NCBI RefSeq assembly: GCF_030410135.1
Contig: NZ_JAUGQQ010000003.1
Coordinates: forward strand, 124,001-188,000
Length of the DNA stretch: 64,000 nucleotides
DNA from: Aequorivita aurantiaca
GTDB taxonomy: Bacteria > Bacteroidota > Bacteroidia > Flavobacteriales > Flavobacteriaceae
Direction: 5' to 3'
Shown: piece by piece, positions 35,396 to 43,729 of the stretch
Layout: each line of letters begins with the position of its first letter
How positions within the stretch are numbered: the stretch's first letter is position 1
Made by a program: the position numbers and the translations under genes
The notes under the pieces: model-generated
The model's input: only the letters and a program-made list of their open reading frames with translations
Told to the model about the DNA's origin: nothing
The model's database searches: none

Positions 35396-37810
35396 ATGCA
35401 GACTGACCCAAAAACTAACGGCGAAATTTCTTTCGAAGATTTTAAGGAAACCGTTCTAAACGATTATAAAATAGCAGTAACCAGCCGTGAGTGTAGTTTG
35501 TTGGGCCGTCGCGAAGTGCTTACCGGCAAAGCAAAGTTTGGGATTTTTGGTGATGGAAAGGAGATTCCCCAATTAGCGTGGGCAAAAGCGTTCAAGAATG
35601 GCGATTGGCGCAGTGGCTATTATCGCGATCAAACTTTTATGATGGCCATTGGCCAGCTTACGGTTGAACAGTTTTTTGCGGGTCTATACGCGCATACCGA
35701 TATAAAAGCCGACCCAATGAGCGCCGGAAGACAAATGGGTGGTCATTTTGCAACCCACAGTTTAAATGAGGACGGCAGTTGGAAAAACCTTACACAACAA
35801 AAAAACAGTAGCGCAGATATTTCCCCCACAGCTGGGCAAATGCCCCGTTTGCTAGGATTGGCGCAGGCATCAAAAATTTTTAGAAACGTAAAGGGGATTG
35901 AAAACAAAACCAATTTCTCCATAAATGGGAATGAAGTAGCCTGGGGAACCATTGGAAACGCAAGTACCAGCGAAGGACTGTTTTGGGAAACCATAAACGC
36001 TGCGGGTGTGCTTCAAGTGCCGATGGTAATGAGTATTTGGGACGATGAATACGGAATTTCCGTTCACGCAAAATACCAGACAACCAAAGAGAACATTTCT
36101 GAAATATTAAAAGGTTTTCAGCGAACCGAAGATGAAAATGGGTATGAAATAATCCGTGTTAAGGGCTGGGATTATCCGGAACTTATAGAGGTTTACAACC
36201 GTGCTTCCACAATTGCGCGCGAAGAGCACGTTCCCGTTTTAATCCACGTGCAACAATTAACGCAGCCACAGGGCCACAGTACAAGCGGCTCGCATGAACG
36301 CTACAAAAGTAAAGAACGTTTGCAGTGGGAGGCTGAATACGACTGTAATGTAAAAATGCGCGAATGGATAATTGCCAGCGATATTGCTACAGATGAAGCT
36401 CTAACAAAAATTGAAAACGAAATAAAAAAACAAGTTCGCGATGGAAAAAAGGCGGCTTGGGAAGCCTTCCTCGCGCCCCAGAAAAAGGAAAAGGATGAAG
36501 CCGTTTTATTGCTAGGGAATCTCGCCGAAAACAGCGCCAATAAAAATTTCGTTGAAACAATAAAGAACGAATTGACTTCGGAAACGGAGCCATTACGAAG
36601 AAATATTCTTGCCGCTGCCCGTAGAGCGTTGCGATACACCGTTAGCGAGCAGTCTTCCGAAAAGAAACAACTGCAGGATTGGATCAATAATTATTTCGAA
36701 ATAATCCAACCCAAATACAGCGCGCATCTCTATTCCGAAGCAAAGGAAAATGCCACTACAATAAAAGAGGTCCTTCCCTCCTACGCCAGCGATGCCGAGG
36801 AAGTGGACGGCCGAGTGATCCTTCGTGATAATTTTGATGCTATTTTCAGCAAGCATCCCGAAGTATTGATTTTTGGTGAAGACAGCGGTACAATTGGGGA
36901 CGTGAACCAAGGTCTGGAAGGAATGCAGGAAAAATACGGCGAACTGAGAGTTGCCGATTCGGGAATTAGGGAAGCCACCATTCTCGGACAGGGAATCGGG
37001 ATGGCGATGCGCGGCCTGCGCCCCATTGCAGAAATTCAATATCTCGATTACGTTTTGTACTCCCTGCAAATAATGAGCGACGATTTAGTAACAGTTCGAT
37101 ACCGAACCAATGGCACCCAAAAAGCACCGTTGATTGTCCGCACCCGTGGGCACAGGCTTGAAGGCATTTGGCACAGCGGTTCGCAAATGGGCGGCTTAGT
37201 TCATTTGCTTCGAGGGATGTACATTCTCGTGCCTAGCAATATGACCAAAGCCGCCGGCTTTTATAACACCCTGCTTGAAACCGATGAACCCGCTTTGGTG
37301 ATAGAATGCTTGAACGGCTACCGTTTAAAAGAAAAAATGCCAAATAATCTAGGCGAACTTAAAACCCCAATAGGGGTCGTGGAAACCGTAAAAGAAGGTA
37401 CTGACATCACGTTGGTTTCTTACGGAAGCACACTGCGCATTGTGGAAGAAGCCGCGAAGGAACTGCAACAAGCGGGAATAAATGCCGAGGTTATTGATGT
37501 GCAATCCCTGCTTCCCTTAGATTTAAATCAAGATATGGTGAAAAGCGTGGCCAAAACCAATAGGCTTTTGGTAATTGATGAAGACGTTCCGGGCGGGGCT
37601 GCGGCGTATATTTTAAACCACATTGTTGAAACGCAAGGTGCATACAAACATTTGGACAGCAAACCTCAAACACTCACCGCGAAAGCGCATCGCCCACCCT
37701 ATGGAACCGACGGCGACTATTTTACAAAACCTTCCGTGGAAGATGTATATGAAAGGGTTTATGAAATTATGCATGAGGCTAATCCGGCGGAATTTCCCAA
37801 GTTAAGATAA
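35396..37810 (+). CDS. 2-oxo acid dehydrogenase E1 component, fused alpha and beta subunits
   Basis: 804 residues from the ATG at 35396. The N-terminal half is an E1-alpha-like domain with SAGRQMGGHF and the ThDP region GNEVAWGTIGNASTSEG. The C-terminal half (about residue 455 onward) is an E1-beta domain with VLIFGEDSGTIGDVNQGLEG, IRE and GMAMRGLRPIAEIQYLDY. It decarboxylates a branched-chain or similar 2-oxo acid and transfers the acyl group to lipoyl-E2, using ThDP. The fused form is typical of Bacteroidota. E2/E3 genes are not in the window. Confidence 0.92.
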   Translation: MQTDPKTNGEISFEDFKETVLNDYKIAVTSRECSLLGRREVLTGKAKFGIFGDGKEIPQLAWAKAFKNGDWRSGYYRDQTFMMAIGQLTVEQFFAGLYAHTDIKADPMSAGRQMGGHFATHSLNEDGSWKNLTQQKNSSADISPTAGQMPRLLGLAQASKIFRNVKGIENKTNFSINGNEVAWGTIGNASTSEGLFWETINAAGVLQVPMVMSIWDDEYGISVHAKYQTTKENISEILKGFQRTEDENGYEIIRVKGWDYPELIEVYNRASTIAREEHVPVLIHVQQLTQPQGHSTSGSHERYKSKERLQWEAEYDCNVKMREWIIASDIATDEALTKIENEIKKQVRDGKKAAWEAFLAPQKKEKDEAVLLLGNLAENSANKNFVETIKNELTSETEPLRRNILAAARRALRYTVSEQSSEKKQLQDWINNYFEIIQPKYSAHLYSEAKENATTIKEVLPSYASDAEEVDGRVILRDNFDAIFSKHPEVLIFGEDSGTIGDVNQGLEGMQEKYGELRVADSGIREATILGQGIGMAMRGLRPIAEIQYLDYVLYSLQIMSDDLVTVRYRTNGTQKAPLIVRTRGHRLEGIWHSGSQMGGLVHLLRGMYILVPSNMTKAAGFYNTLLETDEPALVIECLNGYRLKEKMPNNLGELKTPIGVVETVKEGTDITLVSYGSTLRIVEEAAKELQQAGINAEVIDVQSLLPLDLNQDMVKSVAKTNRLLVIDEDVPGGAAAYILNHIVETQGAYKHLDSKPQTLTAKAHRPPYGTDGDYFTKPSVEDVYERVYEIMHEANPAEFPKLR

Positions 37811-37876
37811 CGCTAAAGTATTGTTATTAGTGGGCTAACCTGCGTATCTTATAGCGTATTTTTAAATATTAACGCT

Positions 37877-38398
37877 ATGAGAAAGATTTACACACTTTTA
37901 TTATTCCTGCTTTTTTCAGCAGTCCTTCCGGCGCAAAACGTCAAGAATAACACCCAATTTATACCTCAATCTGAAGTACCACTTCCTGTATTGGAACGAC
38001 AAAAAAGTGTTTTCCCAACCAATTTTGTGTCTGAGTGGCAGGTTCAAAAAATAAATGAAATGCAAGATGCCCCTAACTTACGTTATATTGCAAAATTTGA
38101 GGAAGACGGTAGACCTGGTTTTTCAGCCTCGTATTTCCCCGATGGATTGTTACTTTACCATTCTGAATTTATTCCGGGGGAAATAATTCCAGCGCCTGTT
38201 CGCTTAAAGATTGAAGAAAATTATAAAGATTTCACCATCCATAATTCTGAATTTATATCTCTATATTATCCGCAACGGGAAATTTATTTGGTGAAATTAA
38301 TGGATGATATGCAGATGCAATATGTTTTTTACGACACAAACGGAAACGAAATTGATAAAAACAATCTTCCGGTGGAATTGCTATTTCTTTTGAGATAG
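37877..38398 (+). CDS. Secreted PepSY-like hypothetical protein
   Basis: 173 residues with a signal peptide (LLLFLLFSAVLPAQN). The mature part has alternating strands with YIAKFEEDGRPGFSASYFPDG and ends NLPVELLFLLR, which recalls the PepSY-like periplasmic domains of Bacteroidota. It probably works in the periplasm. It is followed by the noncoding leader region of asnB. Function unknown. Confidence 0.65.
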   Translation: MRKIYTLLLFLLFSAVLPAQNVKNNTQFIPQSEVPLPVLERQKSVFPTNFVSEWQVQKINEMQDAPNLRYIAKFEEDGRPGFSASYFPDGLLLYHSEFIPGEIIPAPVRLKIEENYKDFTIHNSEFISLYYPQREIYLVKLMDDMQMQYVFYDTNGNEIDKNNLPVELLFLLR

Positions 38399-38553
38399 TT
38401 ATAAGATTACTAATAGGATGGGTTTGAAGCATTAAAGCATTTCATCGGAATTTTCATTTCATTGAACAATTAAATGAATTTTCTTCGGAAAATTTTTGGA
38501 AAGCTTAAATTTATTACATTAAATTAGCCAAACAGTTAAAGCAAAAGAAGTTT

Positions 38554-38613
38554 ATGATACGTTTCAGATTAAATAATAATAATAATAATAATAATAATAA
38601 CGAGCTGCCGTAA
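38554..38613 (+). CDS. Leader peptide with ten consecutive asparagines (asnB attenuator)
   Basis: A 19-codon ORF: MIRFRL, ten Asn codons (nine AAT and one AAC), then ELP and TAA. It has an ATG start with AAGAAG a few bases upstream and a stop only one base before the antiterminator arm. The size and position, and the regulated amino acid being the product of the downstream gene, match classical attenuation leader peptides. The poly-Asn could be an accidental trinucleotide tract, but the in-frame ATG, stop and the RNA structures argue against that. TTTTTG (38493-38498) and TACATTAA (38515-38522) are a possible promoter. Confidence 0.8.
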   Translation: MIRFRLNNNNNNNNNNELP

Positions 38614-38614
38614 C

Positions 38615-38670
38615 AAAAACTTGTCGCGATATAGGGCCTGTCAAGTTTTTTCTTGACAGGCTTTTTTTTT
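38615..38670 (+). promoter_or_regulatory. Antiterminator/terminator attenuator of asnB
   Basis: Terminator: GCCTGTCAAG (38636-38645), six T, CTTGACAGGC (38652-38661), then nine T; a perfect ten-pair stem. Antiterminator: AAAAACTTG (38615-38623) can pair perfectly with CAAGTTTTT (38642-38650). The two structures share 38642-38645 and cannot coexist. The antiterminator's 5' arm starts one base after the leader stop codon, so a ribosome finishing the leader would cover it, while a ribosome stalled on Asn codons would leave it free. This predicts read-through into asnB when charged Asn-tRNA is scarce. Confidence 0.8.
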
Positions 38671-38671
38671 A

Positions 38672-38747
38672 CATCCCCCTTGCCCCCTTTCAAAGGGGGA
38701 ATTTTGAAGTAAAAGCTCCTTCCCCCTTTAAAGGGAGGGCTGGGATG
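38672..38747. repeat. REP-like imperfect palindromic element
   Basis: Begins CATCCC and ends GGGATG, with inner palindromes CCCCCTTT-C-AAAGGGGG and CCCTTTAAAGGG. Such C/G-rich hairpins are common dispersed elements in flavobacterial genomes. It lies in the 5' untranslated region of asnB between the attenuator and the ATG. No second copy in the window. Confidence 0.6.
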
Positions 38748-38788
38748 CGATTTTTTTAATAAGTAACTAACCAATAAAAATTGAAATC

Positions 38789-40456
38789 ATGTGTGGAATT
38801 GTATGTGCATTCAAACTTAAAGAACCAGCGGAATCGCTTAGGCTTCAAGTATTATCAATGTCGAAATGTATCCGTCACCGCGGGCCGGACTGGAGCGGAA
38901 TTTTCAGCAACGACAAAACAATTATGGCACACGAGCGGCTCGCGATTGTGGATCCAACTTCTGGGAAACAACCGCTTTTCAGCAGTGATGGCAACTTGGT
39001 ACTCGCCGCAAATGGTGAAGTCTATAATCATATGGAACTTCGGAAGCAATTCAAAAATTATGACTTCCAAACCAAGAGCGACTGCGAGGTAATCCTTCCT
39101 TTATACAAGGAAAAAGGTTCAAGCTTTTTAGATGAAATGAACGGCATCTTCGGCTTTGCACTTTACGATATAGAAAATGACAACTACTTTGTGGCGCGTG
39201 ACCATATGGGAATCATTCCGCTATATATGGGATGGGACCAGCATGGCACATTTTATGTAGCTTCGGAACTGAAAGCCTTGGAAGGCGTTTGTACCAAAAT
39301 TGAACTCTTTCCTCCCGGCCATTATTTGGACAGTCGCGAAGGCGAACTGAAACGTTGGTACTCTCGCGATTGGATGGATTATGAAAACGTAAAGGACAAC
39401 GAAACCAACATTGCGGAACTCCGCAAGGCAATGCAAGCCGCCGTACACCGCCAATTGATGAGTGATGTGCCTTACGGCGTTTTACTTTCCGGGGGGCTGG
39501 ACAGCAGCATTACTTCCGCCATTGCAAAAAAATATGCCGAAAAGCGTATTGAAAGCGAAGATACGGAAGGCGCTTGGTGGCCACAGCTGCACAGTTTTGC
39601 CATCGGTTTGGAAGGCAGCCCAGATCTAGCCGCAGCACAAAAAGTGGCAGACCATTTAAAGACTGTACATCACGAAATAAAATTCACAATCCAAGAGGGT
39701 ATTGACGCCATTCGCGATGTAATTTACCACCTCGAAACCTATGACATCACCACCATCCGTGCCAGCACGCCTATGTATTTAATGGCCCGCGCCATTAAGG
39801 CGATGGGCATAAAAATGGTGCTGAGCGGTGAAGGGGCCGATGAAATTTTTGGCGGCTACCTTTATTTTCACAAAGCGCCAAACGCAGAGGAATTTCATAA
39901 AGAAAATGTGCGCAAGTTGGACAAACTGCATATGTACGATTGCCTTCGCGCCAACAAGTCACTGGCCAGTTGGGGCATTGAGGGGCGCGTACCTTTCCTC
40001 GATAAGGAATTTATGGACGTGGCAATGCGCATCAACCCGCAGGACAAAATGATAAATGGTGAGCGAATGGAAAAGTGGGTGTTGCGAAAGGCTTTTGAGG
40101 ATATGTTGCCCGAAAGCGTGGCCTGGCGCCAAAAGGAACAATTTAGCGACGGCGTGGGCTACAGCTGGATTGATACCTTAAAGGAAATGGTAGCAAACAA
40201 AGTAACCGACGAGCAATTGGCAAACGCCAAATACAAGTTTCCCATCCAAACGCCCACCAGCAAAGAGGAGTTTTATTACCGAAGCATTTTTGCCGAACAT
40301 TTTCCCAGCGACACCGCCGCACTGAGTGTACCCTCCGTTCCATCTGTGGCGTGCAGCAGTCCCGTTGCTTTGGAGTGGGATGCCAGTTTTAAAAATATGA
40401 ACGATCCAAGCGGAAGGGCGGTTAAGAATGTGCATGCAGATGCCTATGCTAAGTAG
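38789..40456 (+). CDS. asnB: Asparagine synthetase B (glutamine-hydrolysing)
   Basis: A 555-residue cytoplasmic enzyme making asparagine from aspartate, glutamine and ATP. The class II glutaminase begins MCGIVCAF with catalytic Cys2, followed by CIRHRGPD and ANGEVYNH. The synthetase domain has the PP-loop LLSGGLDSS and GEGADEIFGGYLYF. Length matches E. coli AsnB. Its leader contains an Asn-rich peptide and an attenuator, so expression is probably controlled by the charging of tRNA-Asn. No other amino acid gene follows; it appears to be monocistronic. Confidence 0.95.
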   Translation: MCGIVCAFKLKEPAESLRLQVLSMSKCIRHRGPDWSGIFSNDKTIMAHERLAIVDPTSGKQPLFSSDGNLVLAANGEVYNHMELRKQFKNYDFQTKSDCEVILPLYKEKGSSFLDEMNGIFGFALYDIENDNYFVARDHMGIIPLYMGWDQHGTFYVASELKALEGVCTKIELFPPGHYLDSREGELKRWYSRDWMDYENVKDNETNIAELRKAMQAAVHRQLMSDVPYGVLLSGGLDSSITSAIAKKYAEKRIESEDTEGAWWPQLHSFAIGLEGSPDLAAAQKVADHLKTVHHEIKFTIQEGIDAIRDVIYHLETYDITTIRASTPMYLMARAIKAMGIKMVLSGEGADEIFGGYLYFHKAPNAEEFHKENVRKLDKLHMYDCLRANKSLASWGIEGRVPFLDKEFMDVAMRINPQDKMINGERMEKWVLRKAFEDMLPESVAWRQKEQFSDGVGYSWIDTLKEMVANKVTDEQLANAKYKFPIQTPTSKEEFYYRSIFAEHFPSDTAALSVPSVPSVACSSPVALEWDASFKNMNDPSGRAVKNVHADAYAK

Positions 40457-40475
40457 GGATTAGGATTCGTGGTAG

Positions 40476-40507
40476 GTATTCAGTTGTTAGTATTCAGTGT
40501 TCAGTGG
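40476..40507. repeat. Short degenerate ATTCAGT repeat tract
   Basis: Two GTATTCAGT units and one GTTCAGTGG in about 32 bases. A reverse-complement relative is at 55597-55625. Such tracts occur in flavobacterial intergenic DNA. The rest of the 286-base gap after asnB holds no gene or clear signal that I can see. Confidence 0.4.
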
Positions 40508-40742
40508 TAGAAATTTAATCTCGAAAAAAAAACGACCAAAATAGAACGTAGAAATATGAAATCAAGATTTGAACGAATGCTTTTCCCAAAACAGGATTCT
40601 AGATTTATTTACTTCCCTCCTTTAACTTTTAAAATGATTTCGTTGTTAAATAATGTTAGGATTTATGGTAAAGCGCTGAGAATTTAATAGCTTGTATTCA
40701 GAATTATTAAAATCAAATTTTATCAATCTAAAATTTTAAATT

Positions 40743-40883
40743 ATGAAAACACCAAATTTTGAAGACAAACAAGGAAAGCACCCCATTCCCCACGCCAAAG
40801 GAATTGCCAAGGACGATAACCTCAATCCAAAATCGCAAACGGATGGAAAAGGTGCAAAAAAAGAAAAGAAGGAAGAAGAGTAA
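40743..40883 (+). CDS. 46-residue hydrophilic small protein
   Basis: A short gene, MKTPNFEDKQGKHPIPHAKG to GAKKEKKEEE, very rich in Lys, Asp, Glu, Asn and Pro with no hydrophobic core; predicted disordered. The next gene encodes a similar small protein 37 bases on, so the two may form a two-gene transcript ending in a terminator. They resemble small stress-related proteins in composition, but the role is unknown. Confidence 0.55.
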   Translation: MKTPNFEDKQGKHPIPHAKGIAKDDNLNPKSQTDGKGAKKEKKEEE

Positions 40884-40920
40884 ATTGAACAAGTTATAAC
40901 CGAATTCAAAAAATATCAAG

Positions 40921-41127
40921 ATGGAAAAGAAAACACCAATGCTAGATCCCAAAAATAAAAACGAACAAAATATAGAAAAGCAAGATGGGCCGGAAGAACC
41001 AAATTCCAAACCTGAAGCCGTAAAGGAACCTAAAAAGGAAAATTCCAAAGAGGTGCCAGAATCCAATGACCCTGCGGGTTATAGCGAATCTGGAAATATT
41101 AAGAAATCTCCTATTAAGAAAAAATAG
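40921..41127 (+). CDS. 68-residue hydrophilic Lys/Glu/Pro-rich small protein
   Basis: Begins MEKKTPMLDPKNKNE and ends GNIKKSPIKKK. It is strongly charged, almost free of hydrophobic residues and probably disordered. It resembles the preceding 46-residue protein in composition, with a start 37 bases after that stop. The stop codon lies inside the downstream terminator stem. No family recognised. Confidence 0.6.
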   Translation: MEKKTPMLDPKNKNEQNIEKQDGPEEPNSKPEAVKEPKKENSKEVPESNDPAGYSESGNIKKSPIKKK

Positions 41128-41137
41128 GAGATTTTTA
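41104..41137 (+). terminator. Terminator overlapping the end of the small protein gene
   Basis: AAATCTCCTA (41104-41113) pairs with TAGGAGATTT (41125-41134), followed by T-rich sequence. The 3' arm contains the gene's stop codon TAG. Confidence 0.75.
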
Positions 41138-41185
41138 TTTTAAAATTCCAATTTCAAATGCGAAATTCCAAATTCTAAAATTCAA

Positions 41186-43729
41186 CTATCCATTCTTCCG
41201 AAGTACCTCCAATGGAGAGCTCATTAAAACTCCGCGAATGTTGCTTAATCCTATTACCAAAACCAATAGGGAGATTCCGGGTAAGAAAACTAAAAATGGC
41301 AATATTGATGGTGTAAAGGGTTCCTCAAATACAAATAGTGCCAATAACAAACTGCTAACTAGTGCCAAAAGTATTCCCAAGAGACTGCCCAAAATTCCCA
41401 AAAATAAATATTCCAGGGCCGTGATGCTCAATATCTGCTTGTTTTTTGCGCCGAGGGTCCGCAGCAATACACTCTCTTTTATACGCTGATATTTACTGGT
41501 ACGTACGGAGCCAATTAATACAATTATTCCCGTAAGGATACTGAAGAATGCCATAAAATTTATAATCCATGAAACCTTATTCAGAATATCCTCTACTACG
41601 GCAAACATTTGTCTTAAATCAATTACGGAAACATTTGGGAATTTGGTTACCAGCTCCCGCTGCAGGTTTGCCGAACGCTCCTCAGTGGGAGCATAGGTTG
41701 CCAAAACATGGAATTGTGGCGCGCTTTCCAAAACGCCTGCTGGAAAAACGACTGAAAAATTAGGCTGAAGGGTTGTCCAATCCACTTTTCGAATGCTTGC
41801 AACCTCAGTTTGCATTAGCACCCCTTGCACATTAAAAACCATAGCATCGCCAACCGTTACATTGGCATCTTCCGCCAGATTTTCGGAAATGGAGATTTGG
41901 ATGGTTTCGTCTGCACTTTGCTCTGTCACCCACTGTCCTGCCAAAATTTCTTCGGAATCGGTAAGCTTATTGCGATAGGTGGTCCTAAACTCATGATTTA
42001 AAAGCCAGCTTTTGATCATGGATGTACTATCCGTTCGCAATTCATTTACCGATTCATTTTTTATGCTATGCAGCCGCATAGTAACCAGCGGAATATTATC
42101 CAAGACCGGTAGATTATTTGCTTTAAAAGTGCTTACAACCTCCCCGACTTGATCCGGTTGTACGTCTATGGTAATAAGATTTGCACTTTCGGCAGTTTGC
42201 CCCAAGGCGGCTTTATCCATTAAAATATATTTTGTAAAGTGTAGTGTGCTAATTAAAAATGTTCCCAAACCTATAGCGACCAGCAGCACAATAGTTTGAT
42301 TGTTGGGACGAAATAAATTCAGCAAACTTTGCCTTGTAGTAAATCCGGCGCCCTTCGGAAAATATTTCTTAACCAAGTGCATTGTAAATGTGGCAATACT
42401 CGTCAAAATTCCGAAGGTTATAAATACTCCTCCTATGAACGCAAGCGCAAATAAAAAATCCCGAAGCAACCAATAGGAAATGGCATATAAAAACAAAACA
42501 ATAACGGCGATGGCAACGAAGCGAGCCTTATGAGCTTGTTTTGAAGTCTCGCCGCTAAATCGCAACACTTCCAAGGGCGAAACGTACCAAGTGCGCAGAA
42601 GTGGTAGTAACGCAAATAAAATTGACATCACCAAGCCCAGAAGTACTCCCATAATTATAGGTTGCGCAGTAATAGTTATGGTTAAATCAAACGGTAGAAA
42701 TTCCTTTAATACGATCGGAAAAAGCTGCTGAAGCCCTACCCCAATTAGAGTTCCGATTAGGCCCCCCAAGATGCCAATTCCCGCAATTTGTATCAAGAAA
42801 ATCAAAAAGCTTTGTTTTCGGGATGCGCCCAAACATTTTAGAATCGCTATGGCCTTTATTTTTTCCTTTATATAAATATTAACCGAACTGGCAATTCCTA
42901 CACAGCCCAACAGCAGTGCGATGAAGGCGGTTAGGTTTAAGAAAGAACCAACATTTTCATACCGGCGGCCTAATCTACTGCTCGTACTGGTGTGGGTATC
43001 CAAATCTGCATTTTCCGCTTCCAGTATTGGTTGGAGCTTTTCTTCCAACGCGATTAAATCTGCATTGGGTTGTTTGTAATAAAACTGATATTCCTTTCGG
43101 CTTCCGAACTGCAACAGCTCTGTACCCGCTACAAACCGGGAGGGAATAATCACCATTGGGGCAACCGAACTTGCTACAGCAGAATTTCCGGGAATCGCGT
43201 TTAATGCACCAGCGATGGGCAAGGTTATTTCGCCAATTTTAATAGAATCGCCAGCGTTCAAATTATATTGCAACATTAAAGTGGCGTCCACCAAAGCCCC
43301 GCCGGAAGTTTGATAGTTAAAGGCGGCTTGTACGGGCTGTGTTTCCAAATCTCCATAAAAAGGAAAATCGCCCTGTAATCCGCGGACGCGTACCAATTTC
43401 GTTCCATTTTTTTTAGGAAAGGCAACCATTGAAACAAAATTCACTTCCGAAGCATCGGGTTTCAGGGAATCTATAATTGCTTGCGCCCGCTCGTTCGGAA
43501 CCTGATCTGTATCAATAAGAAAATCGGCACCCATCAAGGATTTTGATTGCCGCTGAATATTGTCAGTAAGGTTTTGGCTGAAGAGTTGAATGGAAACTAC
43601 GGCTGCAATGCCTAAAATAATGGAAGCCATAAAAAGTAACAGTCGCGCCCGGCTTGCCTTTGCATCACGCCAAGCCATCTTAAAAAGCCAAGAGAGATTC
43701 ACTGTAGATTTTAACTGGGAATTTTTCAA
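41186..43729 (-). CDS. ABC exporter permease, YbbP-like (two FtsX domains)
   Basis: 847 residues with an N-terminal helix (residues 29-50), a large periplasmic region (about 55-250), six or more helices, a second periplasmic region (about 505-720) and four C-terminal helices. Repeats of the FtsX-type core (GCVGIASSVNIYIKEKIKAI, then GSVRTSKYQRIKESVLLRTLG) show a duplicated MacB/FtsX unit as in YbbP. The first base of its ATG is inside the stop of the ATPase gene (ATGA). The divergent gene is a TesA-like hydrolase, repeating the E. coli ybbP-ybbA-tesA order. Substrate unknown. Confidence 0.88.
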   Translation of the reverse strand: MKNSQLKSTVNLSWLFKMAWRDAKASRARLLLFMASIILGIAAVVSIQLFSQNLTDNIQRQSKSLMGADFLIDTDQVPNERAQAIIDSLKPDASEVNFVSMVAFPKKNGTKLVRVRGLQGDFPFYGDLETQPVQAAFNYQTSGGALVDATLMLQYNLNAGDSIKIGEITLPIAGALNAIPGNSAVASSVAPMVIIPSRFVAGTELLQFGSRKEYQFYYKQPNADLIALEEKLQPILEAENADLDTHTSTSSRLGRRYENVGSFLNLTAFIALLLGCVGIASSVNIYIKEKIKAIAILKCLGASRKQSFLIFLIQIAGIGILGGLIGTLIGVGLQQLFPIVLKEFLPFDLTITITAQPIIMGVLLGLVMSILFALLPLLRTWYVSPLEVLRFSGETSKQAHKARFVAIAVIVLFLYAISYWLLRDFLFALAFIGGVFITFGILTSIATFTMHLVKKYFPKGAGFTTRQSLLNLFRPNNQTIVLLVAIGLGTFLISTLHFTKYILMDKAALGQTAESANLITIDVQPDQVGEVVSTFKANNLPVLDNIPLVTMRLHSIKNESVNELRTDSTSMIKSWLLNHEFRTTYRNKLTDSEEILAGQWVTEQSADETIQISISENLAEDANVTVGDAMVFNVQGVLMQTEVASIRKVDWTTLQPNFSVVFPAGVLESAPQFHVLATYAPTEERSANLQRELVTKFPNVSVIDLRQMFAVVEDILNKVSWIINFMAFFSILTGIIVLIGSVRTSKYQRIKESVLLRTLGAKNKQILSITALEYLFLGILGSLLGILLALVSSLLLALFVFEEPFTPSILPFLVFLPGISLLVLVIGLSNIRGVLMSSPLEVLRKNG

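Follow-up and report, generated by a model that had tools for sequence, protein, structure and literature searches.

Ribosome-mediated attenuators of amino acid biosynthesis have been worked out for few amino acids and mainly in Proteobacteria, where they are exemplified by the trp, his, thr, ilv, leu, and pheA leaders. The element described here lies upstream of asnB, the gene for asparagine synthase B, in a stretch of 64,000 nucleotides from Aequorivita aurantiaca (contig NZ_JAUGQQ010000003.1, positions 124,001 to 188,000; hereafter, the window), a member of the Flavobacteriaceae. Like the proteobacterial attenuators, this asnB leader holds a short open reading frame (ORF) rich in codons for the product of the pathway, mutually exclusive 2:3 and 3:4 pairings between RNA segments (arms 2 to 4), with a possible 1:2 pairing to a further segment (arm 1), and an intrinsic terminator before a biosynthetic gene; unlike them, it would respond to asparagine, and it belongs to a host from the Bacteroidota. 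A further difference concerns arm 1, which precedes the leader start codon, whereas its counterpart in the trp leader, as commonly described, lies over the control codons. In Firmicutes, asparagine genes are controlled by T-boxes. Like the proposed asnB leader, these respond to how far tRNA-Asn is charged and are able to act on termination, but they bind the uncharged tRNA directly and have no leader peptide. Attenuation itself is textbook knowledge, and the new points of the asnB leader are its probable asparagine specificity, its Bacteroidota host, and the placement of arm 1.

Leader-peptide attenuators with runs of control codons have also been predicted by comparative genomics in Actinobacteria, with terminators for trp and ilvB (PMC1262725). 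The asnB leader resembles these in its run of control codons and in its discovery by comparative genomics; the Actinobacteria set includes Trp, Cys, Leu, and branched-chain leaders, and asparagine, asnA, and asnB are absent from the main text of that survey. The word asparagine is likewise absent from the main text of a 2010 survey, according to which—ermC aside—demonstrated attenuators had been confined to Proteobacteria and Actinobacteria until the Firmicutes case that it presents (PMC2965389). In Flavobacterium psychrophilum, which belongs to the same family as A. aurantiaca, the transcriptome hinted at leader peptides that precede operons for amino acid biosynthesis (PMC9723704), and asparagine goes unmentioned in the main text of that report. 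By scans for ORFs and hairpins, 17 loci titled Flavobacterium hold no such leader, and one metagenome bin with that title (L038) carries it. In the window, there are no matches to Rfam families at their gathering scores; the best match within 38450–38800, CyaR_RyeE, scores 31.2 bits (E-value 0.0005), below its gathering score of 47. The original prediction for this locus, made from the nucleotide sequence of the window alone, had remarked that no described asparagine-specific leader of this kind was known. This stands within the open-access papers listed, none of which deals with an asparagine leader peptide.

The same prediction proposed that asparagine regulates asnB by attenuation, and the conservation of the ORF and of the stems supports this proposal: a ribosome-mediated transcription attenuator, by which asnB expression would follow the charging of tRNA-Asn, is considered highly probable. 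The ORF, its ten Asn codons, the pairings, the run of nine T, and the downstream gene lie, to the base, where they had been placed, and the identity of the gene as asnB is confirmed by a family score far above the cut-off (Table 1). Furthermore, the Asn-rich ORF and both stems proved to be conserved in relatives, a check that had been set beforehand, and this conservation makes a chance origin of the leader untenable. Three features go beyond the original prediction, namely an arm 1 that precedes the leader ATG, a fixed three-codon spacer, and a terminal Pro in the leader peptide.

The conservation was assessed in 66 distinct leaders, each of which has the pattern AA[AG]?C[CT]?TTG after the stop codon, a loose arm 3, and at least three Asn among the last 22 residues of the ORF, the leader start being set at the ATG closest to the stop among those giving nine codons or more. 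Seven duplicates were merged, and the selection rule excluded L041, which shares its record with L165 and has three Asn codons followed by an antiterminator of six pairs. In all 66, an Asn-rich ORF is found with the same end position. The leader peptides have 11–19 residues and start with ATG in 65 cases and GTG in one, and Asn makes up 42.7% of their residues (305 AAT and 121 AAC codons), compared to 10 of the 19 codons in the window. Within the window, a run of at least four identical residues occurs in three of the 569 ATG ORFs of 8–35 codons, and solely the Asn leader among these three is followed by a terminator-like hairpin within 110 nucleotides.

The spacing of these elements is nearly fixed as well. 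From the last run of at least two Asn codons to the stop there are three codons in 59 of the 66 leaders, the exceptions having two codons (three leaders), five (two leaders), seven (one leader), or no run at all (one leader). The distance from the ORF to the antiterminator arm, whose conservation was to be checked according to the original prediction, is also kept, as the arm-2 CTTG is placed at +9 relative to the first base of the stop codon in 63 leaders, at +12 in two, and at +8 in one. A ribosome with the usual footprint would cover arm 2 when it stands at the stop codon, and would leave arm 2 free when the last Asn codon is in its A site; the fixed three-codon spacer and the arm-2 offset are the geometry that attenuation demands.

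The antiterminator shares arm 3 with the terminator, so the 2:3 and 3:4 helices are mutually exclusive, and both are conserved. Among the 63 distinct rows obtained from the 66 leaders, standard pairs account for 99.6% of the 504 cells of the 2:3 helix and for 99.0% of the 629 cells of the 3:4 helix. In this alignment, shifting the partner in the 2:3 helix by one to three columns lowers the pairing to about 70% or less. In the first 21 loci, which were selected by eye among the results of a scan for an Asn-rich ORF plus a hairpin and hence without the arm-2 pattern, the 2:3 helix is 97.8% paired (178 cells). The covariation expected in both stems is clear in the terminator, where both sides change in six of ten pairs, and is confined in the antiterminator to one covarying pair, which switches from A-U to G-C in 13 rows; the 2:3 covariation score was reached by none of 500 shuffles, a result that kinship alone can produce. 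Arm 3 has A at position 43 in 33 rows and G in the remaining 30. This base pairs with arm 2 throughout (U-A or U-G), while its partner in arm 4 is C in 19 of the 30 G rows and U in the other 11, and is unpaired in three A rows.

In the window, the predicted terminator has a fold of 11 pairs with an energy of −19.1 kcal/mol (z −6.3 relative to shuffled sequences), and the predicted antiterminator, folded without arm 4, reaches −9.1 kcal/mol (z −2.2). A simple terminator scan of 36000–42000 returned eight sites compared to 7.9 in shuffles, that is, no excess, and the leader terminator is the most paired of the eight (13 pairs). The only exact copy of the arm-2 motif, AACTTGTCGCGATA, in the genome is the one at asnB; with up to two mismatches, its pattern is found at 19 places compared to 39 for the reversed pattern, which indicates that the other 18 are due to chance.

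From this anatomy, we infer promoter use, ribosome footprints, folding kinetics, and a dependence on asparagine as follows. Transcription would start about 20 nucleotides before the leader ATG, at a putative promoter, and a ribosome would translate the Asn-rich leader close behind the RNA polymerase. With ample charged tRNA-Asn, this ribosome would run on to the stop codon, with its footprint over arm 2, and arms 3 and 4 would terminate transcription before asnB. Under a shortage of charged tRNA-Asn, the ribosome would stall among the Asn codons, three or more codons away from the stop, and the free arm 2 would pair with the emerging arm 3, so that no terminator forms and asnB is transcribed. 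In an untranslated leader, arm 1 could hold arm 2, with termination by default. One asparaginyl-tRNA synthetase is found above the family cut-off in the genome (588 bits compared to 342.6), and free asparagine, the product of AsnB, should therefore set the charging of tRNA-Asn.

Table 1. Coordinates in the window of the asnB leader, its predicted regulatory elements, and asnB.
Feature	Sequence or content	Position (strand)	Remarks
Possible −33 promoter element	TTTG	38495..38498 (+)	From the sequence
−7-like promoter box	TAAATTAG	38520..38527 (+)	Putative variant of the flavobacterial consensus TAnnTTTG
Arm 1	AAGTTT	38548..38553 (+)	Predicted fold; adjoins the leader ATG; partner AAACTT (38617–38622)
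Leader ORF	MIRFRLNNNNNNNNNNELP	38554..38613 (+)	19 codons; ATG 38554–38556, stop TAA 38611–38613; read in the sequence
Asn control codons	Nine AAT, one AAC	38572..38601 (+)	Ten codons; read in the sequence
Spacer	ELP	38602..38610 (+)	Three codons from the Asn run to the stop, Pro last
Arm 2 (antiterminator 5' arm)	AAAAACTTG	38615..38623 (+)	Starts one base past the stop codon; also the partner of arm 1
Terminator 5' arm	GCCTGTCAAG	38636..38645 (+)	Overlaps arm 3
Arm 3 (antiterminator 3' arm)	CAAGTTTTT	38642..38650 (+)	Nine pairs with AAAAACTTG
Arm 4 (terminator 3' arm)	CTTGACAGGC	38652..38661 (+)	
U-run of the intrinsic terminator	Nine T	38662..38670 (+)	
asnB	Asparagine synthase B, 555 residues	38789..40456 (+)	Predicted regulated gene; NCBIfam NF006949, 932.6 bits, cut-off 499

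The leader, together with its terminator, is present in all 23 genomes of the genus with this asnB orthologue (28 genomes searched). Among named relatives, it occurs at 12 of 80 asnB loci, in carriers that include Marixanthomonas, Luteirhabdus, Thermobacterium, Patiriisocius, Planktosalinus, and Pukyongia, according to the record titles. To extend this distribution, a covariance model of the part from the stop codon to the U-run (R1), which was built from 21 leaders and in which the stop codon is all that represents the ORF, was run over 397 genomes of the family, giving matches at E-values of up to 1e-3 in 132 genomes, most of them weak. Inspection of 50 matches showed that at least 40 of the 397 genomes, from 25 genera, have the element upstream of asnB, a few of these 40 loci being the same records as named loci. 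At each of the 40, an ORF ends at the element and contains at least three Asn codons, and since R1 is blind to the ORF beyond the stop, these ORFs represent an independent test. The other ten inspected matches (L167, L169, L171, L172, and L175–L180; E-values from 5e-7 to 1.5e-5) have no asnB nearby and were taken as plain terminators.

At the level of the class, a close AsnB relative is encoded in 20 of 159 genomes of the class, and the 500 nucleotides before asnB were scanned in 19 class loci in addition to the window, three of them from the same family. A further model, R2, was run over 395 class genomes with strict filters that lose weak matches, and at E-values of up to 1e-5 it returned only the window and two places without asnB, and hence no such element outside the family. 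Over 87 leaderless loci (68 named and 19 from the class), R2 gave seven weak matches, the best with 33.8 bits, of which L193 is the only one that precedes asnB on its strand; no Asn-rich ORF is found there.

On a tree of AsnB with 118 rows, 50 with the leader and 68 without it, the distribution of the leader needs two changes, compared to about 38 for shuffled labels. This is a quick tree, without bootstrap and with six of the 23 genus loci, which has strong support at 26 of 115 inner branches and places the leader rows L173 and L174 on long branches. The presence of leaders on several deep branches argues for an old origin followed by later losses, a fair but unproven reading. The tree also splits the genus in two (L019, L020, and L022 apart from L001, L012, and L014), with leaders that look alike in both groups and differ from those of the loci next to L019 on the tree; either the histories of asnB and its leader differ, or the tree is wrong at that point.

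L173 and L174 also hold the most divergent leaders, in which arms 1 and 2 can pair through GCAC/GTGC, alongside or in place of CAAG/CTTG, and whose terminators use CCGCCGGG. Apart from these, Asn-bearing short ORFs of a different design precede asnB at three other loci, L190 from the same family and L191 and L197 from other families of the class. The most attenuator-like is that of L197, where MKTQTHNNNRFFALASR, with three consecutive Asn codons, is followed by a U-run terminator and then by asnB (reverse strand, about 160 to 40 nucleotides before the gene). This is possibly an independent asparagine leader, or else a product of chance. Among seven genomes of its family, one other close asnB is found (L196, of the same genus), without such an ORF, and the L197 leader pattern has three occurrences in 395 genomes, two of them away from asnB, L197 itself being its only occurrence at this gene. 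In L191, an Asn-rich ORF of 28 codons, MKMQFRHNGNFGGNHNVNFNIVNSNNNS (reverse strand, about 150 to 60 nucleotides before asnB), precedes a GC-rich hairpin that lacks a U-run. L190 holds an Asn-rich ORF, MIFTFNNNNSNCLFAS, about 80 to 30 nucleotides before asnB, with no terminator after it; the asnB frame appears to be broken there, and the ORF is possibly a relic.

Arm 1 and the terminal Pro would add to the classical scheme. CAAG, which is complementary to the CTTG of arm 2, is found within 18 nucleotides upstream of the leader ATG in 50 of the 66 leaders, compared to zero to two in six control windows further upstream, and the mean energy of the arm-1/arm-2 duplex is −6.4 kcal/mol, compared to −2.6 in control windows; L174 has a longer match, of GCACAAG with CTTGTGC. 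Arm 1 would complete the classical set of 1:2, 2:3, and 3:4 pairings, weakly in the window, and we infer that it keeps arm 2 shut in an untranslated leader: because it overlaps the translation start of the leader, a leader that is not translated would default to termination. The final residue of the peptide is Pro in 54 of the 66 leaders, Thr in 11, and Arg in one, with varied third bases in the final codons (for Pro, CCG in 44, CCT in eight, and CCC in two). Release is slow at a stop codon preceded by Pro, as known from work in E. coli. As a guess, the conserved terminal Pro may slow release at the leader stop and prolong the cover of arm 2, so that the ribosome would hold this arm until the terminator forms. 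The combination of all these points—an asparagine-specific attenuator, old in Flavobacteriaceae, with default termination through an arm 1 over the leader start and with a terminal Pro that delays release and holds arm 2—is put forward tentatively, at a little under an even chance.

Several observations weigh against the proposed attenuator or its parts. The leader is missing at 68 of the 80 named asnB loci, with L049, which has 7 nucleotides of upstream DNA, not being judged; upstream DNA is also short at L080 (174 nucleotides) and L090 (337), and R2 finds nothing leader-like before asnB in these 68 loci. As for arm 1, CAAG is absent from 16 of the 66 leaders, and the window retains only AAGTTT; tested against 100 mononucleotide shuffles, the arm-1/arm-2 duplex ranks among the best 5% for 28 leaders only, and the 1:2 fold of the window does no better than its shuffles (z −0.57). 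The covariation of the antiterminator amounts to one pair plus wobble, with three of its eight pairs invariant, and the pairing figures are favoured by the selection of the 66 leaders through the arm-2 pattern and the loose arm-3 pattern. Finally, the terminator is far stabler than the antiterminator (−19.1 compared to −9.1 kcal/mol), which means that the switch must be kinetic.

Alternatively, the hairpin could be the terminator of an upstream gene, either that at 37877–38398 or the E1 dehydrogenase gene before it, with the Asn ORF being incidental. Both genes are indeed on the same strand as the leader, and an E1 dehydrogenase gene is found near 57 of the 66 leader loci and near none of the 68 named leaderless loci, from which it follows that the leader and this synteny are linked, and that leaderless lineages carry asnB elsewhere. 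However, the leader terminator is also present at seven of the 66 loci for which flanks of 1.5–3 kb revealed neither of the two upstream genes, suggesting that the element goes with asnB. A plain terminator needs neither an Asn ORF at the fixed three-codon and +9 offsets nor a conserved second pairing partner, and this explanation is considered very improbable.

The leader could also act through translation or through the binding of a protein or RNA rather than through termination, as an upstream ORF coupled to asnB or as the target of a protein that binds arm 2. This receives some support from the segment that separates arm 2 from the terminator, which reads GTCGCGATATA in part of the set and is conserved there beyond the needs of pairing. 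The segment is not uniform, though, as it reads GTACCCTATA in another part of the set, and a strong terminator with its U-run stands between the leader and asnB. With 76–217 nucleotides from the leader stop to asnB in the 66 leaders, the distance is too great for translational coupling, and action by any of these routes is regarded as a slim chance. The notion that the Asn run is a functionless AAT microsatellite in AT-rich DNA, as nine AAT among the ten codons of the window and a longest run varying from 1 to 10 among the leaders of relatives might suggest, is negligible, because AAT and AAC are both used in 61 of the 66 leaders, arguing that the amino acid rather than a DNA repeat is conserved, and because the frame, the spacer, and the position of the stop are nearly fixed.

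Promoter-like elements precede the leader. The upstream TTTG is a possible −33 promoter box, and TTTGGA, a form likewise chosen after inspection of the sequences, is found 50–100 nucleotides before the leader ATG in 24 of the 66 leaders, compared to one in the next 50 nucleotides upstream. For the −7 box, the flavobacterial consensus is TAnnTTTG (PMC9723704). Its exact form is not enriched before the leaders (three compared to four of 66), and TAnnTTT[ACG] hardly so (15 compared to 11 of 66). Looser forms, ATATTT[GA] or ATTAG, which were also chosen post hoc, occur 25–65 nucleotides before the leader ATG in 48 leaders, compared to six and two in two upstream control windows. These putative −7-like boxes speak against a transcription start for asnB that lies solely downstream of the terminator.

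As for the surroundings of the element in the window, the gene at 37877–38398, between the E1 dehydrogenase gene and the leader, encodes a protein of 173 residues with a hydrophobic N-terminus and no NCBIfam match, a relative of which is found at 21 of the 66 leader loci. Between the terminator and asnB, positions 38672–38752 hold a C/G-rich inverted-repeat segment (CCCCCTTGCCCCCTTTCAAAGGGGG...), pieces of which (26–36 bases) match four other places in the genome, and similar stretches between leader and asnB are found in some other species of the genus (L003, L005, and L017–L019). This segment looks like a small repeat element.

If true, an asparagine attenuator in Bacteroidota would add one more amino acid and one more phylum to this mode of regulation, and the leader would be a natural sensor of the charging of asparagine tRNA. 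The 66 natural variants represent a set for testing the effects of the number of control codons, the spacer, the terminal Pro, and the strength of the arms, and the 60-position model could be used to annotate the control of asnB across flavobacteria.

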